Source: Aquipuribacter nitratireducens (GTDB taxonomy: Bacteria; Actinomycetota; Actinomycetes; Actinomycetales; JBBAYJ01). Taken from it: a stretch of 64,000 nucleotides of DNA. The position numbers were made by a program, and so were the translations under genes. The stretch spans positions 1 through 64,000 of the forward strand of contig NZ_JBBEOG010000005.1 in assembly GCF_037860835.1 (NCBI RefSeq). The letters run 5' to 3'. The notes under the pieces were generated by a model. The model was given only the letters and a program-made list of their open reading frames with translations. It did not search any database and had not been told where the DNA came from. Every line of letters begins with the position of its first letter. Position 1 is the first letter of the stretch. Positions 24,573 through 64,000 of this stretch are shown here, piece after piece.

Positions 24573-24755
24573 ATGAGCCGAACCACGCACCTGTCCGTCG
24601 CGGAGGTCTGCGCCGAGCTCGGCGTCTCCCGCTCGACCTACTACGACTGGCGCGCGAAGGGACGCGGCCCGCGCTCGCTCAAGCTCCCGAACGGTGAGAT
24701 CCGCATCCGCCGCCACGACTTCGAGCAGTGGCTCGCCAGCTGCGACGAGTCCTGA
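24573..24755 (+). CDS. Excisionase/AlpA-type DNA-binding protein
   Basis: A 60-residue protein with a MerR-like helix-turn-helix and wing (LSVAEVCAELGVSRSTYYDWRAKG, then IRIRRHDFEQWL). The stop overlaps the integrase start (TGATG), the usual xis-int coupling. AAGGA lies 6-10 bp before the ATG. It would favour excision of the element. Confidence 0.85.
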   Translation: MSRTTHLSVAEVCAELGVSRSTYYDWRAKGRGPRSLKLPNGEIRIRRHDFEQWLASCDES

Positions 24756-30241: not shown

Positions 30242-30476
30242 GGCCGACAGCCTACGTAAACTGTTATCCACAGCGCTAATCCGTGTCGACTGTTGTGAAC
30301 AGCCTCGCCGGCCGCCCACCCTGGAGAAGAACGCACAGCCAGGAGGGAGCGGAGCAAGCTATGCACTTGCGTGCCGTAAGCGGTCGAGGCGCTCACGCCG
30401 GCCTCACCCGTGCCGTGCCGGGGGGCACGGTCCCCGTGGCCGGGGTCGCTGCGCTGGGCCTGAGAGATCGCGTCGG
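30242..30476. other. Candidate origin of transfer (oriT) and mob promoters
   Basis: This 235-bp divergent gap before mobC holds a stem with perfect 7-bp arms (CCGTGCC 30413-30419, GGCACGG 30424-30430, GGGG loop) and two small dyads, CTGTT-ATC-CACAG (30261-30273) and CTGTTGTGAACAG (30290-30302). MobP-type relaxases nick near such hairpins upstream of mobC. No nick site can be fixed from sequence alone. Confidence 0.5.
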
Positions 30477-30872
30477 ATGACCGGCGCGACGTCTGGTGCC
30501 GGTGCGCTGCGGCGCCGCCGTCGCGCCAACGTGCCGGGTGGCCGGCACCACTCCCACCGGGTGCTTGTGACCCCGGAGGAGGAGGCAGTCCTCGTCCGGC
30601 TCGCGGAGGCCTCGAGGGTGACGGTGCCGAGGCTGCTCATCGAGGCAGCGATGAGCGGCGGCGGTGAGACGCCGACGGAGCGCCGCGACGCCGTCGCGGG
30701 CCTCTACTCGGTCCGGCGGCTGCTTGCCGCCGTCAGCAACAACGTGAACCAGCTCGCGCGTCACGCCAACTCGGGCTTCGGCTTTCCCGATGAAGCCGCG
30801 GCGACGCTGGTGGCCGTGCGGCGGGTCGTTGTGCGGATTGACGCGGTCGTCGAGGCGCTGAGCGAGCCGTGA
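30477..30872 (+). CDS. mobC: MobC-type relaxosome protein
   Basis: A 131-residue MobC-family protein: basic start, a ribbon-helix-helix-like part (RVLVTPEEEAVLVRLAEASRVTVPRLLIEAAM) and the MobC core (LYSVRRLLAAVSNNVNQLARHANSG). Its stop overlaps the relaxase start. It helps the relaxase open oriT DNA. Confidence 0.85.
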   Translation: MTGATSGAGALRRRRRANVPGGRHHSHRVLVTPEEEAVLVRLAEASRVTVPRLLIEAAMSGGGETPTERRDAVAGLYSVRRLLAAVSNNVNQLARHANSGFGFPDEAAATLVAVRRVVVRIDAVVEALSEP

Positions 30873-35974: not shown

Positions 35975-35983
35975 TCAGTCGCC

Positions 35984-42337: not shown

Positions 42338-42796
42338 TCAAGCGAAGAGGCCGACCGGAGCCGCTGAGACGGGCAACGGGGCTGACCGAGGCTGGTGACC
42401 ACGCTCGGTGCCGCATCCCTTGAACGGGCCGTCAGGAGCGAGGAGGGCCGCCATGTGAGGGTCCGCGTGGTCGCGCCACCAGACGCTCATGCCGGTGGCT
42501 GGGTCGAGGCGGAGGTGCTCCCAGGCGCGCCACAGTGCCTCCAGCCGGTTGATGGCCTCGGCGTGGCGCCACCACTGGGGGCACCACACCCGCTGCGTCC
42601 CTTCCAGGGAGCGGCAGTAGGTTGGGGCGAGGTACTCGAGGACGAACACCTCGACGTTGGGGAAGTAGAGCTGCGGTGCTTCGCCGTCGAGGCCCGCCGG
42701 CTCGCCGCCCTCAGGCGTGACGTCGTCCCACTCGTCAGGCGGCAGGTCGAACACGCCGGTGGCGCTGGCATCATCGCGTTCCGGAGCGCCCGGCAT
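42338..42796 (-). CDS. DUF4913 protein of the conjugation operon
   Basis: A 152-residue protein with the DUF4913 signature in order: FPNVEVFVLEYLAPTYCR, WCPQWWRHAEAINRLEALWRAWEHLR, GMSVWWRDHADPHM. This family is tied to actinobacterial conjugative elements. The start overlaps the stop of the VirD4 gene (ATGA). It is the last gene of the minus-strand transfer operon. Confidence 0.88.
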   Translation of the reverse strand: MPGAPERDDASATGVFDLPPDEWDDVTPEGGEPAGLDGEAPQLYFPNVEVFVLEYLAPTYCRSLEGTQRVWCPQWWRHAEAINRLEALWRAWEHLRLDPATGMSVWWRDHADPHMAALLAPDGPFKGCGTERGHQPRSAPLPVSAAPVGLFA

Positions 42797-44571
42797 CAGC
42801 CCGTCGCTTCCATGCGTACACGGGCGCTGGGGTCGTGAGCAGCGATCGACGCTAGGACCGCCTTCGCGTGCGGTCCCGTCATCCACGGCGCGGTCTTGAT
42901 GAGCGTGGGAGCGACGCCGGAGGCCAAGAGCAGCGCGCGCCCACGGGGCAGCGAGCCGAGGTCGGAGACGTCCAGGACCCGCTCGCGGCGCACGGAGCGG
43001 CTAGTGGAGCGGCCGCTCCTTCCGGTAGAGGTCGAGACTGAGCGGACATCGTAGTCACCGATCAGCTGCGACAGCTCGGACAAGAACTCGACCTCGCTGA
43101 CGCCGCCGCCGTAGACCTTGACGTTGGCCGCGGACCACAGCTTGCGCATGCCGTCACGGCCCCACACCTCGACCCCCTGGGACCAGGACTGCAGGATCGT
43201 CATCATCACGATGCCGCGGGACCCGTAGTGGCTGTAGAGGTTGGGCAGCTCGCGCCAGCGACAGACGTTGGCCGCCTCGTCGAGGACCGCCACAAGCGGC
43301 ACGGGCAGCCGGCCGCCAGCGGACCCGATGGCCAGCTGTTCGGCGGCCTCGGTCACGGCGACGGTGAGGGCGGCGACGAGCGGTCCCGCTGAGCCTCGGC
43401 CCTCCCTCGACAGCGAGTACAGCGTGCCGGTGGTCCGGACGAAGTCCTCGGTCGAGAACTGCCTCCGCGAACGCCTGTTCAGCGCCCCGCCAAGGTCAGG
43501 TGTGGCGACACCGCCGCCGGCAGGGCTATCGGTGACCCAGGCCATCGCCTGGCGGTTCGTCATGAAGGACGCCTGCTGCTGGGCGGTGCCGTAGACGCCC
43601 GCCCGCTGCTTGTCGGGCGCGTTCACGACTCCGGACACCGACGAGGCGGGGAGCGGGTAACCCGCCTCGCGAAGCAGGGCGACCGGTTCGTCGTCCGTGG
43701 GGTCGGTGAGCCACAGGTAGACCTGCGTCAGGGGCCGTCGTGCGACGGCGGCCGCGAGGAGCAGGCCGGCCAGTAGCTCGCGGGCGGCGGCGTCGAAGTA
43801 CGCGTCGGTGCGGGCGCCGGGGTCACGGGCCGCTGTGGCGAAGAGGTCGGCGAGGATCGAGGCCTTCACCTCGTCGGTGACGTACGTCAGAGGATTCCAC
43901 CACCAGCTCGGCTCCTCCTCGGCGACGCCCTGCGGGTCGAAGACCCACACCGGTCCCAGCTCTGCCCGCGGGTCGCGGGTGGCGTCGACAAGGTCACGCT
44001 TGTTCGAGGTTGCCAGCACCGCCCCGGGAGCCGCGAGAACGGCGGGGATCGCCCGGGCGGTCGTCTTCCCGGTCCTGGGACCCCAGATGTCGACGGCGTT
44101 GTCCTCCCACGAGGAGAACAGCTCCTGCCCCGTGAGCGACCAACCCAGCGGCAGTCCTGGTGAGCCCTCGACGCCGAGCCGGGACGCGGTAGCCGTCGCA
44201 CCCAGACGGCTCATTGGCCGCAGCGCCGAGCCGCGCGTGAGATGCGGAGCGGCTCGGTCGACGGCCACCCGGCTGGCGCCGCGCCGCCACCACAGCACGG
44301 CCACAGTGGCAGCCGCCGCCGCGAGGCTTGCTGTGAGGCCGCCGGCGACCGAGGTCGCCGACGTCGTCCACGGGAGGGTTCCGCTCAGGACGCCGAAGAG
44401 GACGGAGAAGGGGTTATGCGGCAGCTGGACTCCTGTGTCGTCGAGGCGGTGTCCGAGGTGCGCAGCTCCGGCAACGACGCCCGTCACGAGTGCAGCGCCG
44501 AGGACACCGACCCACAGCAGAGTCGTCTCGCCGGCGGCGGCGGTCGAGGTCCGCTTCGTCGTCGCGCTCAT
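42796..44571 (-). CDS. VirD4/TraG-type coupling protein
   Basis: A 591-residue ATPase that links the relaxase-DNA complex to the secretion channel. Two N-terminal membrane helices (about 18-38 and 78-95), Walker A GPRTGKTT (about 165), Walker B region VAVLDEAANV (about 430), and a TraM-recognition-like end (VSDLGSLPRGRALLLASGVAP). The start overlaps the stop of the VirB4-like gene. Confidence 0.92.
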   Translation of the reverse strand: MSATTKRTSTAAAGETTLLWVGVLGAALVTGVVAGAAHLGHRLDDTGVQLPHNPFSVLFGVLSGTLPWTTSATSVAGGLTASLAAAAATVAVLWWRRGASRVAVDRAAPHLTRGSALRPMSRLGATATASRLGVEGSPGLPLGWSLTGQELFSSWEDNAVDIWGPRTGKTTARAIPAVLAAPGAVLATSNKRDLVDATRDPRAELGPVWVFDPQGVAEEEPSWWWNPLTYVTDEVKASILADLFATAARDPGARTDAYFDAAARELLAGLLLAAAVARRPLTQVYLWLTDPTDDEPVALLREAGYPLPASSVSGVVNAPDKQRAGVYGTAQQQASFMTNRQAMAWVTDSPAGGGVATPDLGGALNRRSRRQFSTEDFVRTTGTLYSLSREGRGSAGPLVAALTVAVTEAAEQLAIGSAGGRLPVPLVAVLDEAANVCRWRELPNLYSHYGSRGIVMMTILQSWSQGVEVWGRDGMRKLWSAANVKVYGGGVSEVEFLSELSQLIGDYDVRSVSTSTGRSGRSTSRSVRRERVLDVSDLGSLPRGRALLLASGVAPTLIKTAPWMTGPHAKAVLASIAAHDPSARVRMEATG

Positions 44572-46244
44572 GTCGACACTTCCGAGGAGGCAGCAAGTGA
44601 TGCAGTCTCAGCGTCGTAGTCGGGCATCGACCGCGCCGACTGCTCGCGGGCCACGAGGTCCATCGCCTGGACGGACTCGACAGGGTTGGTGATGGCGTCC
44701 AGGTCGATGCGCGCCGCGGGGGCGACTTCGACGCCGTCGGGGCTGTCTGCGCCGCGAAGGGTGGCGGGGTCGACGGCGCGCCACTTCTTGTTCGTGTCGT
44801 TCAGGCTCCCCTCGACAGACGTCAGGGTGACCTGGACGGGGATGCCCGGACGTCCGCCGACCTTGATGAGGAACTTGCCCTGCCCCGGCGGGGTGGTAGC
44901 GTCGCCGACCGCCGAGTCCCACGACGGGGGAGTGGTCCAGCTCGTCACCAGGTCCCGCTCGGCGCGCGACATGCCCACCGCCGAGGTGAGCATCGGGATC
45001 TCCGCCGACGGCAGCCCTCCGCAGATCACCATGCCGGCCCGCTCGACGAAGCCGCGGGCCTTCATGCGGTCCTCCTCGCTGGGCAGCGCGAGCAGGTCGC
45101 TCATGGTGTGCGACACCATCGCCATCCCGACCCCGCGCTGCCGGTTGAGTCGGGTGAGGGCGTCGACGCGGTCGACGATGCCTCGGCCAGCACGCAGCGC
45201 GCGCCAGAGCTCGTCGAGGACGACGAAGTAGTGGCGCCTCGGCTCGAGGCCAGCGTCGGCCAGGGCGTGCGCGACGTTGATCGCGCCGAACCCGGTCGAC
45301 CAGCAGGCGAGGAGGACGGCGGCCTGCAGGTCGGTCTCGCCGTCGCCGATGGCGCTGACGTCGAAGGCGACCGGACGGTCGCGGCGCATCGGCGCGGTCG
45401 TCGGCGCGGCGAAGATCCGCCCGAACCGGCCGCCCTCGACGAGAGCGACGAGCGACGCCTCGAGCCCCTCGGTGACCGCCCGGTACCGGTCGATGTCACC
45501 TCGGTCGAGCGCGACCTGTCGCACGTCGGCCGGTGCGGAGCGCAGCACCTCGACGAGGTCACCGAGCACGGGCACGGCGCCACGGTCGACCGTGCGGTCG
45601 TCGAGAACGCGCAGTGCGCGGTCGAGGATCGCCTCCTCGCGGTCGCTGGGGGGAGCGGTGCGGGCGATGGTCAACAGGGCGCTCACGGTGGTGAGGCGAC
45701 GGCCGTGTGCGTCGGCGAGCACCTCTTCCCGCGCCCGACCTGTGAGGCGGCGTGCCGCAGAGGTCGACTCGCCGGGGTCGAGGACGTTGAGGTGTCCGCG
45801 GCCGCGGCCGAGGGGCAGGACGTCGCCGCCCATGGCGGTGATGAGATCGAGGTAGTCGGGCTTGAGGTCACCGAGGACCAGCGGCAGGACGCCGTAGCCG
45901 GCCAGGCCGAGAGCCATCCGTCGCACGACCGTCGACTTGCCGAGCCCCGGGAGGCCGAGGACGAACGCGCTGGGGTTGGCGATGAGGTTGGCGCGACGGA
46001 ACCACGAGATGGGGTCGCACCCGACGGTGGCCCCGCTGATGAGGTTCTGGCCGAGGGGTACGCCGACGATCGGCGAGCCGGTGCCCGCGGCGAAGGGGTA
46101 GAGCCCGCACACCTGCACCGTCGTCCCTCGGAACTCGGGTGCCGGTTCGACGAGCGCAGCCGCTCCTCGTCCGGGTCCTGCCCATCCGCGCGGACCGGGT
46201 CGACGACCTCCTCGCGGCGGGGTGGCTCGCCGGCGGAGACTCAC
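44568..46244 (-). CDS. VirB4/TraC-type conjugation ATPase
   Basis: A 558-residue ATPase with Walker A GLPGLGKST (about 96), VLGDLKPDY, Walker B FVVLDELWRALR (about 310) and an AMVSHTMSD sensor stretch. It is shorter than classic VirB4 because the N-terminal part is supplied by the separate SCO6880-type protein upstream. GTG start overlaps that gene's stop (GTGA). It powers assembly of the transfer apparatus. Confidence 0.9.
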   Translation of the reverse strand: MSLRRRATPPRGGRRPGPRGWAGPGRGAAALVEPAPEFRGTTVQVCGLYPFAAGTGSPIVGVPLGQNLISGATVGCDPISWFRRANLIANPSAFVLGLPGLGKSTVVRRMALGLAGYGVLPLVLGDLKPDYLDLITAMGGDVLPLGRGRGHLNVLDPGESTSAARRLTGRAREEVLADAHGRRLTTVSALLTIARTAPPSDREEAILDRALRVLDDRTVDRGAVPVLGDLVEVLRSAPADVRQVALDRGDIDRYRAVTEGLEASLVALVEGGRFGRIFAAPTTAPMRRDRPVAFDVSAIGDGETDLQAAVLLACWSTGFGAINVAHALADAGLEPRRHYFVVLDELWRALRAGRGIVDRVDALTRLNRQRGVGMAMVSHTMSDLLALPSEEDRMKARGFVERAGMVICGGLPSAEIPMLTSAVGMSRAERDLVTSWTTPPSWDSAVGDATTPPGQGKFLIKVGGRPGIPVQVTLTSVEGSLNDTNKKWRAVDPATLRGADSPDGVEVAPAARIDLDAITNPVESVQAMDLVAREQSARSMPDYDAETASLAASSEVST

Positions 46245-47752
46245 AGCGCGCTCCGGATCGAGGTCGGCAGGGCCGAGTGCGCCGGAAGGACCAGACCGAG
46301 GGGCAGCGACGCGGCGAAGCCGACGTCCTGCGAGCCGTACATCGGACGAAGTTGTAGGCGGGCGGAGGCTGACAGCATGTCGATCGCGGCGATGGCGTCG
46401 GGAAGGCGGTCCTCGTCCGCGACGGTGGCCGTCACGAGCAGGGAGAAGTCGACGAGCCCGGCACCGAGCGCCTCCTCCGCCGCGGTGGCGGCGGCGGAGC
46501 GCTGTTCGCTGATCGCCCGTGCGGACGGGCGGTCGCTGACCGTCGCGCGGAAGTCGGCGGCTCTCTTGTCGATCTCCACGATGCGCGCCGCGCGGGCGGC
46601 GTCCAGGGGACGGAAGGCGAGCGTCACGCGCTTGCGGTCCACGTCGGGATGCGGGTTGAGCAGGCCGTGCAGCACCGAGCTGTACACCTCGCCTCGCGGC
46701 GGCGCGGTCATCGCCCAGGTGACCGAGACGGCGCTGTCGTGCCGGTAAGTCGACCAGGTCGCCTCCGTCGCGGTCGGCCCGACGTCGCTCCAGCGCAGCT
46801 CGGGGACGGACCGGTCGTGGCGCGCCTCGTCGAGCGTCAGCGCCGTCGACGGGTCGTACGCGACGCGGACGAACTCGCAGAGCTCTTGCGCTCCGACCGG
46901 CCGGACGCCGCCGGCGCCGGTGGCGAGCAGCCCCTGACTGACGACCGGCAGGCGGGAGGCGAGGTCGCGGCCGACCTCAGCGGCCGTCCGTCGGCGTGCG
47001 CCCGGTCGAGGGGCGGCCGAGAAGGTGAGGGTCACCCACGCGCGGATGGTGGCCGAACCCTCCGGGTAGCGCGTGACGACCTCGGACAGCATGGCGAGGG
47101 CGACGGCTGGCGCGTCCGCGGCGGCCTGCTTCTCGACCTCCTGCTTGAGCCGGCTGCCCGAGTCCGGTGCCGTCTCGACCGTCACGCTCGCACCCACGAG
47201 GCCCGCCTCGGAGCCGATGGACGCCAGCCAGGCCCCCCACTGCGCGACCCACAGGTCGACCTGCTCGGCGTCGACCAGCGAGGCACCGTCCGGCTCGGTG
47301 GCGAAGACGACGGAGTAGTGGCCGGTCGAGGGCACGCGCAGCAGGGCGAAGGGGCGGCCCCACGAGTCGGTCCACTCGCTTAGCTGCGACGGGGCGAGCA
47401 GGCCGGGCAGCTGGTAGGTCCCCCATGGGGCCGACGACTGTGGCCCAGACCGGTACAGGTGCAACCCCCGTCGACGGCCGATCCGCCACAGCCCCCACCG
47501 TCCGAGCCGCTCGGCTGCCGTCGCGCCGTGGCGGTCCCGGAGGGCGAGCAGCGCAAGAGCCGACGCGAACAGAACTGCCGTCGGGACCGTCGCGCGGAAG
47601 CCCCCCGTGAACCACGTGATGATGAGGCTGACGAGCCCGACGAAGAGCACGAGCGTGCCGAGCGCGCCCATGCCGAGCAGTCCCGGTGTGGTCGGGCGCC
47701 GCCAGTTGCCGTACGTGCGTGGGCGGGTGCTCGTCGTCTCAGCGACTGCCAT
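46241..47752 (-). CDS. SCO6880-family membrane protein of the type IV secretion system
   Basis: A 503-residue protein with two membrane helices near the N-terminus (GMGALGTLVLFVGLVSLIITW, then VPTAVLFASALALLAL) followed by a large cytoplasmic part like the N-terminal domain of VirB4. SCO6880 proteins occur next to VirB4-type ATPases in actinobacterial ICEs. The ATG at 47752 has GGGGGA 5-10 bp upstream, so it is preferred over 47764. Confidence 0.88.
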   Translation of the reverse strand: MAVAETTSTRPRTYGNWRRPTTPGLLGMGALGTLVLFVGLVSLIITWFTGGFRATVPTAVLFASALALLALRDRHGATAAERLGRWGLWRIGRRRGLHLYRSGPQSSAPWGTYQLPGLLAPSQLSEWTDSWGRPFALLRVPSTGHYSVVFATEPDGASLVDAEQVDLWVAQWGAWLASIGSEAGLVGASVTVETAPDSGSRLKQEVEKQAAADAPAVALAMLSEVVTRYPEGSATIRAWVTLTFSAAPRPGARRRTAAEVGRDLASRLPVVSQGLLATGAGGVRPVGAQELCEFVRVAYDPSTALTLDEARHDRSVPELRWSDVGPTATEATWSTYRHDSAVSVTWAMTAPPRGEVYSSVLHGLLNPHPDVDRKRVTLAFRPLDAARAARIVEIDKRAADFRATVSDRPSARAISEQRSAAATAAEEALGAGLVDFSLLVTATVADEDRLPDAIAAIDMLSASARLQLRPMYGSQDVGFAASLPLGLVLPAHSALPTSIRSAL

Positions 47753-49046
47753 GAGGTCCCCCATCGGCTCCGGATGTCGCGCTGTCGGCCGACTGCTTGA
47801 GCGCGCTGACGGTCTGGACGGTCAACTTCGTGGCCGTCACGGCGGCGGCCGTCGCCGGACCGCCTGCGGCTGCGGCGGCGGCCGGGACACGAGCTGCCGC
47901 GGCGCCGGCCGCGCTCGTGGTCGCGGCGCCCCGTGAGGCGCCGCCGGCGGCTCCCGCGCCCGCAGGCTCGCTCGGCGGGCGCGCGGCTGAGGCGCCCTGG
48001 TTCGAGCCAGCGCCTCCCGACCCGCGCGAGCCAGAGGGGCCGCTGGAGCCGTCAGCGCCGCTCCGGCCACTGCGCGCGAACGCGGCGCCACTCGGCATGG
48101 CGCCCATGGCAGCGACGGCGAGTCCCGCTGCTGCACCGCTCGAGGACGCGGCCATGATGCCGACGGCCGGCGTGACGAACCGCATGAGAGCCGGCAGCGC
48201 GAGGATGGCGAGCACCATCATCGTGACGCCGACGAGGACGTCGAGCATGCCGGCGCCTGCTTCGTCGCCGAACAGGTCGGCCCCGGACAGGCGGAACGCC
48301 GTCGCGTAGACGATGGCGGCGGCCGGCTTGTAGAGGATGAAGGCCAGCAGCCATGCGCAGCACCGGCGGAACCAGGTGCGTCCCGTCTCGGTGGTGGTGA
48401 AGGCGGCCGACAGCGGGAAGATCCCGGCGAGGATCACGAGCATCCCCGACCTGACGATCATGAGGATGATCTGGACGCACGAGGTGACGATCCCCGCGAC
48501 GCCGAGCACGATGACGAGGAGCGCGGGGAGGCCGTCGCCCACGGCGGTCGGTGTGATGAGCGGCGTGAGGAGCAGGGCGCCGAGGTTCTCGCCGAAGTCG
48601 GTGCCGACCGTCGAGCGGTCGATGATCCACTCGGCGAAGGCGTCCGCTGCCTGCACGGCCAGCGCGATGACGGCCAGGCCGGATCCGGACACGACGGCGA
48701 GCGTCATGAGGGAGCGGAGGACGTCTCGACCGGGCTCTGCTCGGCGCTCCCAGGCCATGCGCGCGCCGCCCACGGTGACCGACAGGACTGCCGCGGCGGC
48801 CATGTACCACCACAGCGACCCCTGGATGAAGGCGACGGCGTCGGACGGGTTGTTGCCCGACGTCGTGAGGTTGGGCGTTCCGATGTCGACCCACAGCGTC
48901 GACAGCGACGTCAGCACGGCGCCTACGGCGTCGCCGACCGCCGCGGCCAGCCGCGCCAGCGTGTCCGTCAGCACCCCGGCTGCTACCTCCTGCAGCTGGC
49001 AGTCGAACTGCCAGACCTCGCACTGCGGAGCTGCAGGCGTCGTCAC
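47739..49046 (-). CDS. VirB6/TrbL-like polytopic membrane protein
   Basis: A 435-residue protein with about six to eight membrane helices (WWYMAAAAVLSVTVGG, LVIVLGVAGIVTSCVQIILMIV, MLDVLVGVTMMVLAILALPALM) and a long low-complexity Gly/Ser/Ala tail of about 130 residues. Cys residues near the N-terminus (CEVWQFDCQ) could form a disulfide outside. GTG start overlaps the stop upstream. It forms the inner channel of the secretion system. Confidence 0.87.
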   Translation of the reverse strand: MTTPAAPQCEVWQFDCQLQEVAAGVLTDTLARLAAAVGDAVGAVLTSLSTLWVDIGTPNLTTSGNNPSDAVAFIQGSLWWYMAAAAVLSVTVGGARMAWERRAEPGRDVLRSLMTLAVVSGSGLAVIALAVQAADAFAEWIIDRSTVGTDFGENLGALLLTPLITPTAVGDGLPALLVIVLGVAGIVTSCVQIILMIVRSGMLVILAGIFPLSAAFTTTETGRTWFRRCCAWLLAFILYKPAAAIVYATAFRLSGADLFGDEAGAGMLDVLVGVTMMVLAILALPALMRFVTPAVGIMAASSSGAAAGLAVAAMGAMPSGAAFARSGRSGADGSSGPSGSRGSGGAGSNQGASAARPPSEPAGAGAAGGASRGAATTSAAGAAAARVPAAAAAAGGPATAAAVTATKLTVQTVSALKQSADSATSGADGGPHGSR

Positions 49047-49795
49047 GTGCCGCTCCACGGCACGTAGCCGGCGAGTCCGGGCAACGCCTGCACGCGGGGG
49101 AAGGGAGCGCCCTCGGGGCTGTAGACGAGGCGCCAGTCGCCTCGCTCCCAGCGCAGGGTCATCGGAGTGTGCGCGTACACGCCCTGCTGATCGGCGACGC
49201 CGAGGACGGCGAGGTCGATGACGGTCTCGTCCTCGGTCCACGACAGGAACGAGAAACCGGCCAGCTGGAACGGGGCACCCGAGTCCACCGGCGTTGAAGG
49301 CGAGTCGGGGAGGTTGTCGAGGGCGACGTCGCGGCCGGGGCCCTCGGCGGCGAGATCCTCGGCGAGCACGCGGCCGCCGTCGGGGAGCGTCGTTGCGGCG
49401 AGAGCGTTCGCCGCGGCGTACAGCGCACCCGTCGGGGTGCGGGCAAAGCAGGACCTGACCGGCTCGGTGACGGCCGGGCCGTGGGTCTCCGGTGCGGTCG
49501 GGGCGGCCACACGTCCGACGAGCTCCCACTGCGTGTCCGTCGGGGTCGTCCTCGGCACGGTCTGGTCCGAGAAGGGCAGGTCGCACTCGGCGCCAGCCGT
49601 CCCTCGGTCGGTGGCCGTGGCGGACGCCCCGGCGACCGGTGGCTCCGCCGCCGACGGCTGCCGCTGGCCCGGGTCGGCAGTCGGCAGGACCAGCGCCACG
49701 ACGGCCGCGACCAGCAGCGCGGCGACGAAGACCGCCGCTACGACGAAGCCGCGGCGTCGTGGCGAGCTGGCCGCCTCGTCGTTCGTGTCCGTCAT
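49043..49795 (-). CDS. Single-pass transfer protein in the VirB8 position
   Basis: A 250-residue protein: cytoplasmic start, one membrane helix (VVAAVFVAALLVAAVVALVLP), a Ser/Pro-rich linker and a folded extracytoplasmic domain (GALYAAANALAATTLPDGG, FSFLSWTEDETVIDLAVLG, TPMTLRWERGDWRLVYS), an NTF2/VirB8-like plan. Its place between the VirB2-like and VirB6-like genes supports this. Identity with VirB8 is inferred from topology. Confidence 0.75.
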   Translation of the reverse strand: MTDTNDEAASSPRRRGFVVAAVFVAALLVAAVVALVLPTADPGQRQPSAAEPPVAGASATATDRGTAGAECDLPFSDQTVPRTTPTDTQWELVGRVAAPTAPETHGPAVTEPVRSCFARTPTGALYAAANALAATTLPDGGRVLAEDLAAEGPGRDVALDNLPDSPSTPVDSGAPFQLAGFSFLSWTEDETVIDLAVLGVADQQGVYAHTPMTLRWERGDWRLVYSPEGAPFPRVQALPGLAGYVPWSGT

Positions 49796-52604: not shown

Positions 52605-52643
52605 TGCACTGACACGGGTGTAGCCAACCGGTCCGCGGGGGCG

Positions 52644-55089: not shown

Positions 55090-56280
55090 TCAAGCGCGCG
55101 CAAGTCCCTTCAGCCGCTCGATGATGAGCTGCACCGGGACTTCTGTTGTGGCGGGCCCCCAAGAGAACCGGAGCGCCCCTTCGATGCGCTCGCGGGGCAG
55201 TCCCGAAGCTTGCAGGACATGGCTGGGTTGGTAGCTCTGTGAAGTGCAGGCGGACCCGTTCGAGACGGCGACCACGTCCTTCAGCGCTACGATGGCGGCC
55301 TCCGAGTCGACGCCTGGGATCGACACATTGAGCGTGTTCGCCACCGTCCGCTTCGGGTCGCCGTTGATGTTCGCGCCGAGGGCAAGGAGACCCTCGACAA
55401 GAGCCTGCTTGATCGCCCCGGCTGAGGCGGACCGCTGCTTCGCCTCCTTCAGAGCCAAGGTCGATGCCGCCCCAAGCCCAGCGACGAGCGGTACCGGCAA
55501 GGTGCCGGGGCGAAGTCCGCGCTCTTGGCCACCCCCGTACATGAGTGGAGTCAGTGGTGGGCGTTTGTAGCCGCGACGCCGGGCGATGAGTGCTCCGATG
55601 CCCTTCGGCGCGCCGATCTTGTGTCCGGAGATGGACAACATGTCTATCCGCTTGGTCTGCAGTGGGGCGATCAACTTTCCGACTGCCTGGGCTGCGTCGA
55701 CGTGAAGGAAGGCGTCGTGCCCGGCCAGCAACTCCGCGATCTCCTCGATCGGCTGCACGACACCGGTCTCGTTGTTGACCGCCATGACGGAGACCAGGAG
55801 TGTGTCTGGCCGAAGCGCGGCCGCCACAGTCGCAGGCGAGACCCAGCCTCCTTCGGTGGGTGCCAGCAGCTCGATCTCGAAGCCCTCGCTGCGTAGCACC
55901 TCCAACGGCTCGAGGACGGCCTTGTGCTCGATCTGGGTCGAGATGATGTGTCGCTTGCCCGTCGACTTCCCGTATGCCGCCAGGCCGAGGATGGCCAGGT
56001 TGTTGCTCTCGGTAGCACCGCTGGTGAAGATCACCTCGTCGGACTTCGCCGTCACGACCGCGGCGACCTCCTCGCGCGCTCGGTTGACTCGCTCCTTTGC
56101 GACCTGGCCGTAGCCATGCGTCCGGCTGCCGGCGTTGCCGAACTCGTACGACATGTAGGTCACGACCTCGTCAACCACGCGGGGGTCGACCGGAGCCGTC
56201 GCGGCGTGATCGAGGTAGACCGGGCGATGCTCGTCGGGCGCTCCGCTAGCCGACGTGTCCAGGGGTGTCGCTACTGTCAT
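55090..56280 (-). CDS. dndA: Cysteine desulfurase of the DNA phosphorothioation system (DndA)
   Basis: A 396-residue PLP enzyme that takes sulfur from cysteine for insertion into the DNA backbone. Features: YLDHAATAPVDP, GNAGSRTHGYG, TSGATESNNLA, PLP lysine in SGHKIGAPKG, and the catalytic Cys in GSACTSQSYQPSHVL. Same length as IscS/NifS-type enzymes. It is divergent from dndBCDE, as in the Streptomyces lividans dnd cluster, which separates it from a housekeeping IscS. Confidence 0.92.
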   Translation of the reverse strand: MTVATPLDTSASGAPDEHRPVYLDHAATAPVDPRVVDEVVTYMSYEFGNAGSRTHGYGQVAKERVNRAREEVAAVVTAKSDEVIFTSGATESNNLAILGLAAYGKSTGKRHIISTQIEHKAVLEPLEVLRSEGFEIELLAPTEGGWVSPATVAAALRPDTLLVSVMAVNNETGVVQPIEEIAELLAGHDAFLHVDAAQAVGKLIAPLQTKRIDMLSISGHKIGAPKGIGALIARRRGYKRPPLTPLMYGGGQERGLRPGTLPVPLVAGLGAASTLALKEAKQRSASAGAIKQALVEGLLALGANINGDPKRTVANTLNVSIPGVDSEAAIVALKDVVAVSNGSACTSQSYQPSHVLQASGLPRERIEGALRFSWGPATTEVPVQLIIERLKGLARA

Positions 56281-56297
56281 GTTCGTGAGCCTACCCG

Positions 56298-56318
56298 TCC
56301 GTACGGAGTGTTGTACGG
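56298..56318. promoter_or_regulatory. Candidate DndB operator between dndA and dndB
   Basis: The 10-bp palindrome TCCGTACGGA (56298-56307) is followed by a second GTACGG (56313-56318) in the same direction. Both lie in the 44-bp gap before the first possible dndB ATG. DndB of known systems binds TACG/CGTA-type motifs upstream of dnd genes, so this is a likely autoregulation site. Confidence 0.65.
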
Positions 56319-56372
56319 TTCAGAATGCAGGCAGTTCGGACATCGATCCGAACCGACGGTAGGTGTAGGGGT

Positions 56373-57527
56373 GTGGTGAAGGTGTCGGCGATCGTGGAGG
56401 CGGCCAGCAGTCACTCGACCAGTGCCCGTCCAGGGGGGTTCGAGTACGTCTTTCCGGCGATCCGGGGCGTTCAGGCGGGGCGCGAGTACTACGTGACGAT
56501 GTGGCCACTGCGGCTGATCCCAAAGCTCTTCCTCTTCGACGAGGAGGAGTTGCCACCGGAGATGCGTGCCCAGCGGACGCTCAACAAGGCCCGCGTGCCG
56601 GAGATGGCGCGCTACATCGTGGACAACTCCGACAGCTACGTCTTCTCGGCGCTGACCGCCTCGGTGAATGCCGACGTTCGGTTCACGCCGCTGGTCAACG
56701 ACGGCGGGGTGGCCGATCGCGTGGGCACTCTAGCCATCCCGATGGACGCCAGGTTCGTGATCAACGACGGGCAACACCGCCGTGCGGCGATCGCGCGGGC
56801 GCTGGAGGAGAATCCTGACCTCAGCGACGAGACTATCGCCATCGTCATGTTCATCGACGTTGGGTTGAGCCGGTGCCAGCAGATGTTCGCCGACCTGAAT
56901 CGGCATGCCATCCGCCCCGCCAAGTCCATCGGGGTTCTCTACGACCACCGCGATCCGCTCTCGACGGTGGCCAAGCAAGCCGTCCTGAAGTCGCCCTTGT
57001 TCAGCGACATCACCGAGATGGAAACCAGCAACCTAGCTGCGCGCTCGCGCAAGCTGTTCACGCTGTCGGCCTTCTACACGGCCGACCGGGCGCTGCTCGA
57101 GGGTATTGAGGAAGAGTCGGTCGAGCGGCGCATCGAATTGACCGTGGAGTACTGGCGCGCCGTCGCGAAGCAGTTCCCCACTTGGGAACAGGTGCACCGC
57201 GGCGACGTCCGCGCCGGCGAGGTCCGGCGGGACTTCATCCACAGCCACGGCATCGTGCTGCACGCGCTCGGGAAGGTCGGCAACACGCTGGTCCGGCAGA
57301 ACCTGACGCCCTCGACGTGGGAGAAGAAGCTTTCGAGGCTGTCAGGCATCGACTGGCATCGCAACAACTCGGCCGTATGGGAGGGCCGCGCCACGGTCGG
57401 CGGGAAGGTTACCAAGGGCGCCTCAAACGTCCTGCTTACCACCGCCTTGATCCGTGAGGTCCTGGGCCTACCGCTGCCCCCCGAGGAGCAGCGCGCCGAA
57501 GACGCCTTCAAGCGAGGAGAGAAATGA
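56373..57527 (+). CDS. dndB: DndB, DGQHR-motif regulator of DNA phosphorothioation
   Basis: A ParB/Srx-fold protein with the DGQHR motif (INDGQHRRAAI, about residue 132) and the family opening FEYVFPAIRGVQAGREYYV. It represses dnd genes and tunes modification. The start is uncertain: GTG 56373 or 56382 (AGG-rich stretch upstream) fit better than ATG 56325, which has no ribosome site and lies close to the operator. Its stop overlaps the dndC start (ATGA). Confidence 0.92.
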   Translation: MVKVSAIVEAASSHSTSARPGGFEYVFPAIRGVQAGREYYVTMWPLRLIPKLFLFDEEELPPEMRAQRTLNKARVPEMARYIVDNSDSYVFSALTASVNADVRFTPLVNDGGVADRVGTLAIPMDARFVINDGQHRRAAIARALEENPDLSDETIAIVMFIDVGLSRCQQMFADLNRHAIRPAKSIGVLYDHRDPLSTVAKQAVLKSPLFSDITEMETSNLAARSRKLFTLSAFYTADRALLEGIEEESVERRIELTVEYWRAVAKQFPTWEQVHRGDVRAGEVRRDFIHSHGIVLHALGKVGNTLVRQNLTPSTWEKKLSRLSGIDWHRNNSAVWEGRATVGGKVTKGASNVLLTTALIREVLGLPLPPEEQRAEDAFKRGEK

Positions 57528-59062
57528 TCACCAGTTTGCCGATCCGGCCGCGCTCGGCATTCGACGACCTCGGCTTCGCCGGGACCGTCGATGCTCTAGT
57601 TGCCCAGACGCAGGAGCTCTACCGCGCAGACGGCGTGCCTTGGGTCATCGGCTACTCCGGCGGCAAGGACTCGACCGCGGTGCTTCAGATCGTCTGGCAG
57701 GCGCTGCAGGGCCTCCAGCCGGAGCAGCGCACCAAGCCCGTGCACGTCATCAGTACGGACACGCTGGTCGAGAACCCCGTGGTGGCGGCCTGGGTGACGC
57801 ACTCGCTCGAGGTGATGGCCGAGGAAGCGGCGGCCCAGGGGTTGCCGCTGACGCCCCACCGCCTGACGCCGACGGTGACTGACACGTTCTGGGTCAACCT
57901 CATCGGCCGCGGCTATCCGGCACCGCGACCGAAGTTCCGCTGGTGCACCGAGCGCCTCAAGATCAAGCCGTCCAACGCCTTCATCCGCGACATGGTGCGC
58001 TCGCACGGCGAGGCCATCCTGGTGCTCGGCACCCGCAAGGCGGAGAGCTCAGGCCGCCATGCTCGAATGGCAGCGCTGGAGTCGCGCCGCGTGCGCGACC
58101 TGCTGAGCCCCAACGACTCTCTGCCCAACTGCCTGGTCTATTCGCCAGTGGAGAACTGGTCGAACGACGACGTCTGGACCTTCCTGATGCAGACGCCCAA
58201 TCCATGGGGGTACTCCAACAAGGAGCTGCTGACCATGTACCAGGGCGCGTCGCCCGACGGCGAGTGCCCGCTGGTGGTCGATGCCAGTACGCCGAGCTGT
58301 GGCGACAGCCGTTTCGGCTGCTGGACCTGCACGCTCGTCGAGAAGGACAAGTCGATGTCGGCGATGATCCAGAACGACGAGGAGAAGGAGTGGATGCTGC
58401 CGCTCCTCGAGTTGCGTAACGAACTGGACGTCGCTGATGACCGACACCTTCGCGACTTCCGTCGGATGAACGGCTCGGTGCAGCTGTTCCACGACAAGAC
58501 GATCCCTGGCCCGTACAAGCAGTCCGCCCGAGAGGACTGGCTGCGCCGTCTCCTCGAGGCGCAGGCTTGGATTCGAGAGAACGGCCCCGACTACGTCCGC
58601 TCTCTCGACCTGATCACCACCGCCGAACTCGAGGAGATCCGCCGGATCTGGGTCGTCGACAAGCATGAATTCGAGGACCACCTGCCGGGGATCTACGAGG
58701 CTGCCATCGGTGCGCCCTACCCCGGCAAGCTACTCGATGAGCACCTTCCGCTGGGCGCCGACATGATCAGCTCGCTCCAGGAAGTCGTCGGTGAGGATCG
58801 GCTGCACTTCGAACTCGTCCGCGAGCTGCTCGACATCGAACAGCGGCACCGCTCCCAAGTACGACGTGCGGGACTCTTCGAGTCGCTGGAGAAGGCCCTG
58901 CGCAAGGGGTTCTACGACGACGAGGCCGACGCCACCATGCGCGCCCAGAAGCGGAAGGCCGCCCTGGAACGCGTCCCGGCAGAGCATGATCGATCGCCGG
59001 ATCCCCTCGATCTAGCAGATGGTTACGCCCGCCCGACGGCGACGGCGGGGCCCACCTCGTGA
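57524..59062 (+). CDS. dndC: DndC, PAPS-reductase-like sulfur transferase
   Basis: A 512-residue enzyme with an ATP-pyrophosphatase loop (SGGKDST, 45-51), RWCTERLKIKP (Cys141) and a cysteine cluster (Cys259, Cys266, Cys269 in CGDSRFGCWTC) that holds the [4Fe-4S] centre known for DndC. It activates and transfers sulfur during phosphorothioation. The length is usual. Start and stop overlap the neighbours. Confidence 0.95.
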   Translation: MITSLPIRPRSAFDDLGFAGTVDALVAQTQELYRADGVPWVIGYSGGKDSTAVLQIVWQALQGLQPEQRTKPVHVISTDTLVENPVVAAWVTHSLEVMAEEAAAQGLPLTPHRLTPTVTDTFWVNLIGRGYPAPRPKFRWCTERLKIKPSNAFIRDMVRSHGEAILVLGTRKAESSGRHARMAALESRRVRDLLSPNDSLPNCLVYSPVENWSNDDVWTFLMQTPNPWGYSNKELLTMYQGASPDGECPLVVDASTPSCGDSRFGCWTCTLVEKDKSMSAMIQNDEEKEWMLPLLELRNELDVADDRHLRDFRRMNGSVQLFHDKTIPGPYKQSAREDWLRRLLEAQAWIRENGPDYVRSLDLITTAELEEIRRIWVVDKHEFEDHLPGIYEAAIGAPYPGKLLDEHLPLGADMISSLQEVVGEDRLHFELVRELLDIEQRHRSQVRRAGLFESLEKALRKGFYDDEADATMRAQKRKAALERVPAEHDRSPDPLDLADGYARPTATAGPTS

Positions 59063-61035
59063 TCATCAACCGGCTGGCACTCCACAACGTCGGCACCTTC
59101 GCCGGCCGCCACGTCCTCGACCTCACGCCACCCTCAGAGGCCAAGCCGGTCGTCTTGGTGGGCGGCCTCAATGGTGCTGGTAAGACCACGATTCTCGAGT
59201 CGATCCAGCTGGCCCTCTACGGCGCCCTTATCCACGCCTCGGCTCGACGGACCGGCAGCTATGAGAATTACCTGCGTGGGCTCGTCCATCGCGGAGTGCC
59301 ACTCAGCGAGGGCGCCTCTATCGAGCTGACGTTCACCGCCCACCAGGAAGGCGCCGAGCACACGTACTGGATCCGGCGGAGCTGGAAGAGCACGGGTGCC
59401 TCCATCCGCGAGATCCTGCTCGTCTCAGTCGACGGGCGACACAACCAGAGCCTCACCGCGACCTGGAACGAGCACGTCGAAACGTTCCTGCCCCGTGGCA
59501 TCGCCGGCCTGTTCTTCTTTGATGGAGAGCAGATCGAAGCGCTCGCCGACATGGAACGGTCCCGTCAGGTGCTCGGATCCGCCCTCGCTGCTCTGCTTGG
59601 CCTCGACCTCGTCGACCGCCTGACCACTGACCTTGTGGTACTGCGGCGCCGCCACCGCGGCCAGCAGGTGCCGGAGGAACTCCGCCAAGCGATCGAGGAG
59701 AAGCAGCAACTCGTCACAGCTCATCGGCATGCGGAAGAGGCGTCCGCAGAAGCCGAAGCCGCTCGCCGGACTGAGGTTGAGCGCTGCGAGAAGCTCGTGC
59801 ACGAGACGACCGAGGCATACCGTGCAGCCGGGGGAGGCCTGCTCGAGCAGCACGAGGCGATCGAATCAACCGCTTCGATGGTCCGCGCCGGCGTGGCGCA
59901 GTGTGAGGACGAGATCCGGCACGAACTCGGGGAGAGCACGCCGCTGCTACAGGTAGAAGGCCTGCTGTCGCGGCTCGTCGAACAGGCACGGGCTGAAGAT
60001 GAGGTGCGTCGAGACGCCTTGGTGATCGAGGCCTTCAGTTCCCGGGATGACCTCCTGCTGGAGCGGCTTCGCGACGCCAAGGTGGAGGTCGGCGCTATAC
60101 AGGCGATCGAGCAGTTTCTGACCGAGGACCGGGAGCAGCGTCGCAGCTCCGTCGCCAGCACCGACAACGTCACGGGCCTCACAAACTTGCCGGCTTTGCA
60201 GGGCCTGCTCGCGACGACGATGCCTGAGGCCCGGAAGCGGCTTAAGTCGGCGCTTGAGCGGCGAGCGCGGTTGAAGGCGGAACTCGATCAGGCCGAGCGC
60301 ATGCTGGGAGCCATCCCTGAGCCCGAGGCGCTGGCGCCGCTACGCCAGGCTCGTGAGGAGGCGCGCGACGCGCTGCTTCGCGCTGAAGCCGCGCTGGCCC
60401 TGGCTGCGGAAATGCTGCAGACGGCGCGGGCCGACCGGGCGAAGGCCCACGCCGCCTACGAAACTGCCCTCGACAAGGCAGCTCAGGCCAACCTCGCCGT
60501 CGACGACGACCGTCGCCTGGTCGAACACGTCGAGAAGGTACGGGACACGTTGGAGCGCCTGCGCGTCGCAGCAACGAAGCGTCACCTCGACCGGATCTCC
60601 GAGCTCATTCTCGAGGCACTCGGCGCATTGCTCCGCAAAGAGAAGCTGATCACCGACGTTCGGATCGATCCGGAAACCCACACCGTCGCACTGACGGGAG
60701 CAGATGGGCACCCACTGCCGGCGAACGACCTTTCGGCAGGAGAGCGCCAGCTGCTCGCGGTCGCCCTGCTGTGGGGTCTGGCGCGTGCTGCCGGACAGCC
60801 GCTCCCGGTGGTTATTGATACGCCCCTCGGCCGGCTTGATGGTTCGCACCGACAGCACCTACTCGAGCGCTACTTCCCGCAGGCCAGCCATCAGGTCGTG
60901 CTGTTGTCGACCGACACCGAGATCGACGAGGAGGCGTTTGACCGCATCGCTCTGTACGTCGGTCGCGCCTATCACCTCAAGTTTGATCCGGCGACAAATG
61001 CGACCAACATCGAAGACGGCTACTTCTGGGAGTGA
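59059..61035 (+). CDS. dndD: DndD, SMC/Rad50-like ATPase
   Basis: A 658-residue ATPase: Walker A GGLNGAGKTT (35-44), long central coiled coil (about 210-520), ABC signature LSAGERQLLAVALLWG and Walker B PVVIDTPLGRLD near the end. DndD is thought to open or nick DNA for sulfur insertion. GTG start overlaps the dndC stop. Confidence 0.95.
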   Translation: MIINRLALHNVGTFAGRHVLDLTPPSEAKPVVLVGGLNGAGKTTILESIQLALYGALIHASARRTGSYENYLRGLVHRGVPLSEGASIELTFTAHQEGAEHTYWIRRSWKSTGASIREILLVSVDGRHNQSLTATWNEHVETFLPRGIAGLFFFDGEQIEALADMERSRQVLGSALAALLGLDLVDRLTTDLVVLRRRHRGQQVPEELRQAIEEKQQLVTAHRHAEEASAEAEAARRTEVERCEKLVHETTEAYRAAGGGLLEQHEAIESTASMVRAGVAQCEDEIRHELGESTPLLQVEGLLSRLVEQARAEDEVRRDALVIEAFSSRDDLLLERLRDAKVEVGAIQAIEQFLTEDREQRRSSVASTDNVTGLTNLPALQGLLATTMPEARKRLKSALERRARLKAELDQAERMLGAIPEPEALAPLRQAREEARDALLRAEAALALAAEMLQTARADRAKAHAAYETALDKAAQANLAVDDDRRLVEHVEKVRDTLERLRVAATKRHLDRISELILEALGALLRKEKLITDVRIDPETHTVALTGADGHPLPANDLSAGERQLLAVALLWGLARAAGQPLPVVIDTPLGRLDGSHRQHLLERYFPQASHQVVLLSTDTEIDEEAFDRIALYVGRAYHLKFDPATNATNIEDGYFWE

Positions 61036-61430
61036 TGATGGCCCTCGAACACGTTCGGCTCTCACAGACGGCGCGTGACCAATTGATCACGCTCAAGCGG
61101 CGCACGGGCATTGCGCACTGGAACGTCCTCTGCCGCTGGGCGCTGTGCCGGTCACTCGCTGAGCTGGCGCCGCCGCCTACGATCAAACTGACGCTCGACA
61201 GCAACGTCGAGATGAGCTGGCGGACCTTTGGCGGAGAGCTCGGGGACGTGCTGTGGGCGCTCGTCAAGATGCGCTGCCGAATCGACGGGCTTCCGCTCGA
61301 CGAGGAAACGCTAGCCCAGCAGTTCCGACTCCACCTGCACCGCGGTATCGGGTATCTCGTCGGTGATCCTCGGGTGAGTGACGTGGCTGGGCTCGCTGGT
61401 GTCGGGCTCAGCGAGCCGCCAGCGGCATGA
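61032..61430 (+). CDS. dndE: DndE, small DNA-binding subunit
   Basis: A 132-residue helical protein with the DndE pattern: LSQTARDQLITLKRRTGIAHWNVLCRWALCRSL, then FGGELGDVLWALVKMRC and FRLHLHRGIGYL. It binds nicked DNA in known systems. Three start codons (GTG 61032, ATG 61035, ATG 61038) are consecutive; any may be used. Overlaps dndD and the methyltransferase gene. Confidence 0.93.
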   Translation: MMMALEHVRLSQTARDQLITLKRRTGIAHWNVLCRWALCRSLAELAPPPTIKLTLDSNVEMSWRTFGGELGDVLWALVKMRCRIDGLPLDEETLAQQFRLHLHRGIGYLVGDPRVSDVAGLAGVGLSEPPAA

Positions 61431-62875
61431 TCCTGGAGTCCGTTGCTCGTCACAGGACGGCGATGACACGGGTTGCCCTGTCCCGTCCGATGGCGACGGC
61501 TGCCGCTGATGGGTTCTTGCAGCCAGAGCGCACCGTCTTCGACTACGGCTGCGGTCGCGGTGACGACATTCGGCATCTCCGCACGCTCGGTTACACGGTA
61601 GATGGCTGGGACCCCATGCACCGCCCTGAAGCTGAACGACGCCCGGCCGACGTGGTCAACCTGGGATACGTCCTCAACGTGATCGAGCGACCCAGCGAGC
61701 GAGCGGACACGCTCCGAGCCGCTTGGGACTTGAGCCGTGAACTGCTCGTCGTCTCGACGCGCATGACGTGGGACGCCCGGGGCCTCATCGGCCGCCCGAT
61801 CGGCGACGGCCTCATCACCCGAAGCGGCACGTTCCAGAAGTTCTACGACCAGCCTGAGCTGGCGGCATGGATCGAGGACACCGTCGGCGTGCAGCCGCAC
61901 GCTGCGGCGCCCGGCATCTTCTACCTGTTTCGCGACGAGGCTGCCGCCCAGCGGTTCGTCGCCTCGCGCGTCTACACCTACCGGCCGCGTGTTCGCATCG
62001 ATCCGCAGGCGCATTACGAGGCCAACGCCGAGACGCTGGCACCGTTGATGAGCTTCATGCGCGAGCACGCCCGGCCACCGAAGCCTGGAGAACTCCCGGA
62101 GACCACCGCAGCCGCGATTCAAGAGGCGCTCGGCAGCCTCGGTAAGGCGCAGCGCCTCATCCGGCAGGTCACTGACGACGACTACTGGGCCGAGGTCACC
62201 GTCCAGCGCCGGGCCGAGCTGCTCATTTACGTGGCCCTCTCTCGGTTCGGCCGTCGGCCGAAGCTCTCACAGCTCGACCGGACGCTTGCCACGGACTTGC
62301 GACTGCTGTTCGGGACCTACCAGGAGGCATGCCTTCACGCCGACCGACTCCTTCTCGCGTGCGGTGACCAGGCGCTCCTGTATGTCAACGCTCGCAGTTC
62401 GACGATCGGCAAGCAGACGCCGAGCGCGCTCTACGTCCATCGGTCGGCGATGACGGAGATCCCGCCGGTGCTGCAGGTCTACGAGGGCTGCGCTCGCGTG
62501 CTGGCAGGAACCGTCGACCACGCCAACATAATCAAGTTGTCCGTCAGCGAGCCGCAGATCTCATACCTGAGCTACCCAACCTTTGACCGTGATCCGCACC
62601 CGACGCTGCGCTCGTCAGTGACGGTTAACCTGCGGAAACTCAGCGTCGACTGGCGTGACTACAGCCGGTCGGAGAGCCCGCCGCTGCTCCACCGCAAGGA
62701 AGAGTTCCTCGGCGCCCATGACCCGAAGCGACCGCTCTACGAGCGATTGACCCGAGCCGAGATGCGGGCTGGACTTTATGAGCATCCCGAACGGATCGGG
62801 ACCCTCCGAGGCTGGCGGGACACGCTTGACGCAGCCGGCGTCACGTTGCGAGGCCACCGGCTCCTTCGCGGGTAA
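61427..62875 (+). CDS. Phosphorothioation-associated putative methyltransferase
   Basis: A 482-residue protein with a class I methyltransferase motif I (VFDYGCGRGDDIRHL) and post-motif acidic residue (GWDPMHRP) in its first third, and a long C-terminal region of unknown role. It matches the methylase-like gene often found at the end of dndBCDE operons. The start overlaps dndE (ATGA), so it is part of the operon. Whether it modifies DNA is unknown. Confidence 0.88.
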   Translation: MILESVARHRTAMTRVALSRPMATAAADGFLQPERTVFDYGCGRGDDIRHLRTLGYTVDGWDPMHRPEAERRPADVVNLGYVLNVIERPSERADTLRAAWDLSRELLVVSTRMTWDARGLIGRPIGDGLITRSGTFQKFYDQPELAAWIEDTVGVQPHAAAPGIFYLFRDEAAAQRFVASRVYTYRPRVRIDPQAHYEANAETLAPLMSFMREHARPPKPGELPETTAAAIQEALGSLGKAQRLIRQVTDDDYWAEVTVQRRAELLIYVALSRFGRRPKLSQLDRTLATDLRLLFGTYQEACLHADRLLLACGDQALLYVNARSSTIGKQTPSALYVHRSAMTEIPPVLQVYEGCARVLAGTVDHANIIKLSVSEPQISYLSYPTFDRDPHPTLRSSVTVNLRKLSVDWRDYSRSESPPLLHRKEEFLGAHDPKRPLYERLTRAEMRAGLYEHPERIGTLRGWRDTLDAAGVTLRGHRLLRG

Positions 62876-63153: not shown

Positions 63154-64000
63154 GTGCTGAACGAGTATCGCTACCCGGCCTTCCTGCTAAAGCAGACCGA
63201 CAGAAGCAAACCACTGGTGCTCTTCGCGGCACCCGCCGGCCACATCGACTCCTGGGCCGGTGTCCCGCAGCGGCGTCGGCTAGCTGGCGAGGAGACCGTG
63301 GGCTGGCAGCGCGAGGAGAACCAAGGCCGACTCAAGGAACTCACCGCGTTCTTCAGCGACGGCCGCAACGTTGTTCAGAACCCTCTCTTGTGCGCGCTAC
63401 AGGACGCTGATTCTGTTCGTTTCGAACCCGGGGCGGAGGACTCGGCAATCGGTCACGTTGTAGTCGTTCCCCGTCCCTACGCCGACATGCCGCTGCTTGA
63501 GCTGCTGCGCGAGGTGCGTGAGCGACTGGCGACGCGCGTTGAGGGGCTGTCATCGGTCGAGCTGGATCCGCAGCGGCTGCGCGCCGCGATCGAGCGCGCC
63601 CGCGACACGCACGACCTCGACGTCGCCGACGACAGCCAGGGTCCAATAGAGCACGATGATGAGCCGGGCGTGGACGAGGACGTGGTCATGCAGGACGAGG
63701 ACGTTGCCGAGGCGGCCTCCGCAGTCTTTGCCGAGGAGACACAAATTGTCGACTTCTACCAGGAGTTGCTCATCCGTATCGACATACTCGAGCGAATCGG
63801 CGAGCAGTCTCATCCCGACTCTCTATTGGGCTTCAGTCGTGACGCGATGCTGAGTTACCTGAAGCCGGTGGTGCTCGTGGACGGCCAACATCGCCTACGG
63901 GGCGCAGTGCTGGCAGCAGAAGCAAGCTTGGACTCTGAAGAGGGTCAGAGAGCGCAGATGGACGCCATCGACGCAGGTGAGGAGCCCGCAGCGGTCAAGA
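63154..64000 (+). CDS. Second DGQHR-motif protein, cut by the window end
   Basis: An open frame from GTG 63154 to the last base with no stop, so the C-terminus lies outside. The start (LNEYRYPAFLLKQTDRSKPLVLFAA) is followed by a domain of about 150 residues, an acidic insertion (about residues 160-190, many Asp/Glu) and then VVLVDGQHRLRGAVLAAE, the DGQHR motif of the DndB/DpdB group. It is separated from the dnd operon by 278 bp in the same direction, so it may be a second regulator or part of a linked defence module. Confidence 0.8.
   Translation, partial: MLNEYRYPAFLLKQTDRSKPLVLFAAPAGHIDSWAGVPQRRRLAGEETVGWQREENQGRLKELTAFFSDGRNVVQNPLLCALQDADSVRFEPGAEDSAIGHVVVVPRPYADMPLLELLREVRERLATRVEGLSSVELDPQRLRAAIERARDTHDLDVADDSQGPIEHDDEPGVDEDVVMQDEDVAEAASAVFAEETQIVDFYQELLIRIDILERIGEQSHPDSLLGFSRDAMLSYLKPVVLVDGQHRLRGAVLAAEASLDSEEGQRAQMDAIDAGEEPAAVK

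Follow-up and report, generated by a model that had tools for sequence, protein, structure and literature searches.

The window analysed comprises 64,000 nucleotides, positions 1-64000 of contig NZ_JBBEOG010000005.1 of Aquipuribacter nitratireducens (genome 3.83 Mb), and holds a set of dnd phosphorothioation (PT) genes within an integrated element (Table 1). The genes dndA to dndE and that for a phosphorothioation-associated putative methyltransferase, six in all, were open from start to stop, and each product scored above its curated NCBIfam cut-off, the DndA-DndE models being equivalogs and TIGR04096 a subfamily model. Read from the translations, DndA carries the PLP lysine in SGHK and the catalytic Cys in GSACTS, DndB the motif DGQHR, DndC the motif SGGKDST and a Cys-rich cluster region, and DndD a Walker A sequence (GGLNGAGKTT) and an ABC signature (LSAGERQ). 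An earlier note on this DNA had described a complete dnd locus with intact motifs, which these results confirm, and had placed dndA facing dndBCDE, which they do not: dndA and dndB are divergent and 44 bp apart. From dndB to the methyltransferase gene, 4-base overlaps at every junction make the genes look like a single operon. Genome-wide, the only PAPS-reductase-domain match was DndC, and the assimilatory CysH of that family was not found.

Table 1. Features of the dnd element and of the sister pairs. Positions are those of the window unless marked as contig positions (same numbering) or preceded by a locus handle.
Feature	Position	Strand	Match or remark
Left attachment repeat (28 bp at the 3' end of tRNA-Ser(TGA))	16346..16373	+	
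Tyrosine integrase of the element	24728..26134	+	PF00589, 1.6e-11
MobC-like protein and MobA/VirD2-type relaxase	29694..32491	+	PF05713, PF03432
Two neighbouring FAD-dependent disulfide reductase genes (cargo)	34510-37360		Pyr_redox_2
TraG/VirD4 coupling protein, VirB4-like ATPase, SCO6880-family protein, TrbL/VirB6-like protein	42796..49586	-	
M23 peptidase	50977		
HTH regulator, IrrE/ImmA-like peptidase, MAB_1171c-family protein	52122-54421		Between transfer genes and dnd
dndA, cysteine desulfurase	55090..56280	-	TIGR03235, 497 bits (cut-off 480)
TCCGTACGGA, perfect palindrome, candidate DndB operator	56298..56307		In the 44-bp dndA-dndB gap
dndB, DGQHR-domain regulator	56325..57527	+	TIGR03233, 503 bits (cut-off 328)
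dndC, sulfurtransferase	57524..59062	+	TIGR03183, 663 bits (cut-off 290)
dndD, ABC-type ATPase	59059..61035	+	TIGR03185, 583 bits (cut-off 246)
dndE	61032..61430	+	TIGR03184, 118 bits (cut-off 72); PF08870
Phosphorothioation-associated putative methyltransferase	61427..62875	+	TIGR04096, 614 bits (cut-off 150)
DGQHR2 gene, 569 aa	63154 to contig 64863	+	GTG start; window holds the 5' part, 63154..64000
HNH endonuclease gene, 315 aa	contig 64871-65818		PF01844, 2.7e-7, above its cut-off; beyond window end
ISL3 transposase	contig 65870-67285		
Reverse transcriptase (DRT-like, defence-type)	contig 67523-69388	-	Closest to PADLOC RT_UG22
Right copy of the 28-bp tRNA-Ser repeat	contig 70023-70050		Exact copy, past window end
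Sister pair, Bradyrhizobium plasmid pB41S5	L017:12001-14299		Beside dpdA/dpdB/que
Sister pair, Sphingomonas	L056:9980-12322		Beside dpdA/dpdB/que

The operator-like sequence noted earlier is present in the dndA-dndB gap as TCCGTACGGA, which occurs as a single copy within 94.5 kb of contig. A perfect 10-bp palindrome is expected by chance in a 44-bp gap of the same GC in about 7% of cases, so the palindrome is weak on its own. The dndA-dndB gap of many relatives contains a TACG-N12-CGTA box, close to the TACG-N10-CGTA box bound by Salmonella DndB (PMC4507180), and it is these boxes that make TCCGTACGGA plausible as a DndB operator.

The element spans 53.7 kb and is framed by an exact 28-bp repeat of the tRNA-Ser(TGA) 3' end; integrase, relaxase, coupling protein, T4SS ATPase and att repeats together are the content of an integrative conjugative element. 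The GC content of the dnd stretch was about 0.65 vs. 0.70-0.74 across most of the remaining sequence. No DndD above cut-off was found in the 38 relatives searched, including 2 same-genus genomes, and a clean empty site was not found in these two, the left flank being syntenic only in part. Carriage of dnd on a conjugative-type element, which had been proposed from the adjacent transfer genes, is supported by the integrase, MobC, relaxase, coupling protein, VirB4-like ATPase and tRNA-Ser repeats. Along the contig the tRNA-Ser 3' end is present at least 8 times, with 81-100% identity across ~69 bp (at ~16305, 69982, 96991, 102786, 107882, 114642, 124799 and 143364), as if several elements had stacked up in tandem at a single tRNA gene, the dnd element being the first of them.

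The DGQHR2-HNH pair

Directly downstream of the locus lies the gene for a DGQHR-motif protein, here DGQHR2, followed 7 bp after its stop by an HNH endonuclease gene and then by the ISL3 transposase and the reverse transcriptase. Disruption of the module by the ISL3 insertion was rejected, as the transposase starts 51 bp past the HNH stop and both genes are unbroken. The earlier note had ended the locus at 62875 and had seen no restriction genes up to 64000. The second statement is true of nucleases, but a restriction candidate, DGQHR2, begins at 63154, and the check that the note proposed, reading the sequence past 64000, brought up the HNH gene; the first, and with it the lack of a restriction partner, is not supported, given this pair and its dnd-linked homologues across phyla. 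Among the DndFGH-type genes also proposed for checking, neither DptF (TIGR03238) nor DptH (TIGR03237) was found in this genome, while the same searches matched three others.

DGQHR2 matched TIGR03187 at 4.6e-10, under that model's cut-off, and is distinct from DndB. DGQHR_dnd_1 (TIGR04172, cut-off 450 bits) did not match the protein of this genome and matched just 4 of 29 DGQHR2 homologues (best E 6e-4). Pfam searches of both proteins for GmrSD_N and GmrSD_C (DUF262 and DUF1524) gave no match. Across 30 homologues of the HNH protein 24 residues were invariant, including the HNH and zinc residues of an HNH endonuclease (H193, N207, N216, C144, C212).

Fold comparisons used an AlphaFold2 model of a DGQHR2 homologue (locus L018, pLDDT 83). 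Z scores were 7.9 against the ParB CTPase 7bm8 (2.7 Å, 99 residues), 7.6 against 6sdk, 5.3 against SspE (6jiv), 3.8 against DndI (9jfl) and at most 3.2 against the other chains compared; all are moderate (below Z 8), and at this level a ParB-like fold is predicted for DGQHR2. Foldseek alone gave no match at E ≤ 0.001 for either the DGQHR2 or the HNH model, and a PDB sequence search with the DGQHR2 profile gave nothing credible. In the HNH model (pLDDT 90.9), approximately residues 125-275 matched the HNH domains of Cas9, Cap5, Gme and EcoKMcrA, and the N-terminal helical half gave just weak helical matches, none convincing. Caspase-3 matches of the HNH profile look like chance and were discarded.

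Distribution, linkage and exchange

Searched with a DGQHR2 alignment, 84,980 species genomes yielded 39 loci, with the HNH gene downstream, adjacent and co-directional in all 39 and the DGQHR motif invariant in all homologous loci found. Removal of the distant Sphingomonas member (L056) left 38 close homologous loci. DndC was encoded in each of the 38 corresponding genomes, against a background of 3/396 Actinomycetota genomes with DndC above cut-off, and dnd genes lay within 10 kb of the pair in 34 of the 38 loci, counts that take in related strains and so are not independent events; in the remaining four (L024, L034, L035, L043) dndC is elsewhere in the genome. The pair stands before or after dnd, on the same strand or convergent, and beside dndE, dndA, dndB or the methyltransferase gene. 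As the arrangement differs between loci, the link is not simply inherited as a single operon, which argues for an association that arose repeatedly.

Hosts of the pair belong to at least 5 phyla (Actinomycetota, Cyanobacteria, Pseudomonadota, Acidobacteriota, Myxococcota); by record titles and taxonomy, Acidicapsa is the Acidobacteriota member and Kofleriaceae the Myxococcota member. On the Ti plasmid of Agrobacterium larrymoorei both genes are adjacent and less than 5 kb from dndEDCB-dndA. No DGQHR2 relatives were found in phage records, and none in 395 other Actinomycetota genomes save one marginal partial match; a relative is present on two viral-collection contigs. Across the genomes searched, the DGQHR2-HNH module is rare.

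Vibrio metoecus OP3H (L054:9995-11654, 18174-19281) has an interrupted DGQHR2 gene and an apparently split dndA; other species keep intact copies. A helicase-like gene and a gene for a protein of 423 aa that contains a VEGNTRTA stretch adjoin dnd in A. larrymoorei (L016:7368-11014), and this gene set is also dnd-adjacent in a Burkholderiales MAG (L050) and a Kofleriaceae MAG (L033). The VEGNTRTA protein is ParB-like by eye, and the set is possibly another dnd-linked module.

Correlation of pairwise distances (Mantel) was tight within the pair (DGQHR2 vs. HNH, r = 0.925; DndC vs. DndD, r = 0.904) and looser between DGQHR2 and the Dnd proteins (0.61-0.69), indicating that DGQHR2-HNH is a unit swapped between dnd loci. 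The nearest relatives also differ, being a Mycobacterium locus for the dnd genes (DndC 88%) and Actinoallomurus for DGQHR2 (60%). The two closest dnd relatives examined that are without the pair have other restriction-type genes after the methyltransferase gene: directly 3' of it in genome G424 (DndC 82%), a GmrSD_N/GmrSD_C protein of DndI-like architecture, and in Arthrobacter StoSoilB13 (DndC 85%), a Pbe-like ABC ATPase and helicase genes. On these two examples, the site 3' of the methyltransferase gene looks like a slot that different restriction modules can fill.

DptF was missing from 35 of the 38 pair-bearing genomes; the three positives (L039, L053, L054), which also hold DptH, indicate that the DptF search works. 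Of 3416 dnd taxa that bear nucleases, PMC10853773 counts 806 with DndFGH, against which 3/38 with DptF is low but falls short of proving exclusion. With three genomes holding both, the pair need not replace DndFGH. At an unlinked site (C1:261620-262228), the A. nitratireducens genome also encodes a 596-aa GmrSD_N (DUF262) protein, a possible second effector.

Sister DGQHR-HNH pairs adjoin dpdB-dpdA-dpdB-que genes in two Alphaproteobacteria (Table 1). The dpd genes make 7-deazaguanine in DNA. DndC was not found in plasmid pB41S5 or in the Sphingomonas genome, and a search of 384 additional genomes from the same class as this Sphingomonas gave no relative of its version of DGQHR2. We put forward only tentatively, on these two genomes, that DGQHR2-HNH is a general two-protein restriction module, with one branch partnering Dnd phosphorothioation and the sister branch Dpd 7-deazaguanine. 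If so, it would be an exchangeable cassette of self-mark reader and nuclease working across backbone and base chemistry, and a single nuclease cassette would have come to serve two DNA modifications that are unrelated.

A candidate restriction module and its known relatives

Gene content, conserved pairing, dnd linkage, co-divergence, HNH residues and the predicted ParB-like fold make it fairly probable that the pair is the split SspE/DndI-like restriction module of a mobile PT-based restriction-modification system, standing in place of DndFGH. A split SspE/DndI, in which one protein is the sensor NTPase and another the nuclease, is the simplest reading of the models; linkage by itself would equally fit a regulator or a back-up effector. 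In the proposed system DndA would supply sulfur, DndC would insert it at sites picked by DndD/DndE, and DndB would autoregulate the operon at the dndA-dndB gap. The pair would then take the restriction role instead of DndFGH: DGQHR2, as a ParB/DUF262-like NTPase, would sense the presence of PT on DNA and gate the separate HNH subunit in a complex, and this subunit would nick or cut unmarked DNA. The pair probably destroys DNA without the sulfur mark.

Alternatively, the HNH protein could be an abortive or back-up effector, set loose on host DNA by a disturbance of the PT system or of the host itself, without telling DNA apart by its mark. It has no recognised DNA-reading domain, and such a role is proposed by Rakesh et al. 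for standalone nucleases at dnd loci (PMC10853773). This is unlikely, however: the partner of the HNH protein is in every case a DGQHR protein, and the likeness of that protein's model to the PT-sensing ParB-like domains of SspE and DndI (PMC11662687) points to active sensing. Also to be weighed is a type IV-like (modification-dependent) nuclease directed against PT- or otherwise modified invader DNA and restrained in the host by DGQHR2. HNH nucleases that depend on PT are known, ScoMcrA among them (PMC3009677), and from the dpd-linked sister pairs the module accompanies more than one DNA modification; yet dnd co-occurs in all 38 genomes, where a PT-cutting enzyme would attack its host, and family searches matched neither an SBD nor an SRA family in the HNH protein. 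The fold comparison does not decide here, and we consider this reading improbable.

It is more improbable still that the locus serves modification only, with dnd providing an epigenetic or redox mark next to an unrelated pair, e.g. an inter-plasmid conflict module. The Streptomyces lividans dnd system, as is established, works without dndFGH, and the element bears further defence-type cargo in the DRT-like reverse transcriptase, but chance neighbourhood fits poorly with dnd in 38/38 pair genomes over the DndC background of 3/396. Many dnd loci are without DndFGH and the mark-reading enzyme there is an open question, according to PMC10853773; the pair, which co-occurs with dnd in all 38 genomes and in several phyla, is a concrete candidate for the mark reader.

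No prior description of the DGQHR2-HNH pair was found in the literature covered (the supplement of PMC10853773, subscription papers and preprints being outside its scope), and no paper was found that brings phosphorothioate, DGQHR and HNH together. HNH nucleases near dnd are listed in PMC10853773, whose nuclease section describes wHTH-SAD-HNH forms and no DGQHR-HNH pair. The dnd locus, complete and carried by a mobile element, is the ordinary part of this finding; DGQHR2-HNH, as judged from sequence and models, is an apparently undescribed, conserved restriction candidate for dnd systems.

Compared with DndABCDE-DndFGH, the modification genes are identical in kind, and DptF and DptH are missing from this genome. 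In Streptomyces lividans, as here, dndA is divergent from dndBCDE, and dndFGH is absent; the present locus differs in the linked DGQHR2-HNH pair and the TIGR04096 methyltransferase 3' of dndE. In DndI, PT switches the nuclease off, and in SspE it switches it on; either may hold for the pair. Both effectors sense PT and join a ParB-like NTPase domain to an HNH nickase domain, and the ATPase activity of DndI requires a DGQQR motif (PMC11662687), whose similarity to DGQHR was pointed out in PMC4619093. IscS-DndBCDE-DndI, which can act without DndFGH (PMC11662687), likewise combines dnd modification with a ParB/DUF262-fold NTPase (here predicted) and an HNH nuclease, but DndI is one protein with DGQQR and a DUF1524-type HNH, whereas two genes, DGQHR and a PF01844-type HNH are found here. 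SspABCD-SspE, too, couples its HNH nuclease to an NTPase domain that senses PT and has a ParB-like fold (again predicted here), and differs in its modification genes SspBCD, its single-strand PT and its one fused protein. In GmrSD (split form) and BrxU, HNH likewise goes with a ParB/Srx domain (predicted here), there with DGQQR and either split or fused; unlike them, the pair has no GmrSD_N or GmrSD_C Pfam match and is linked to DNA modification genes.
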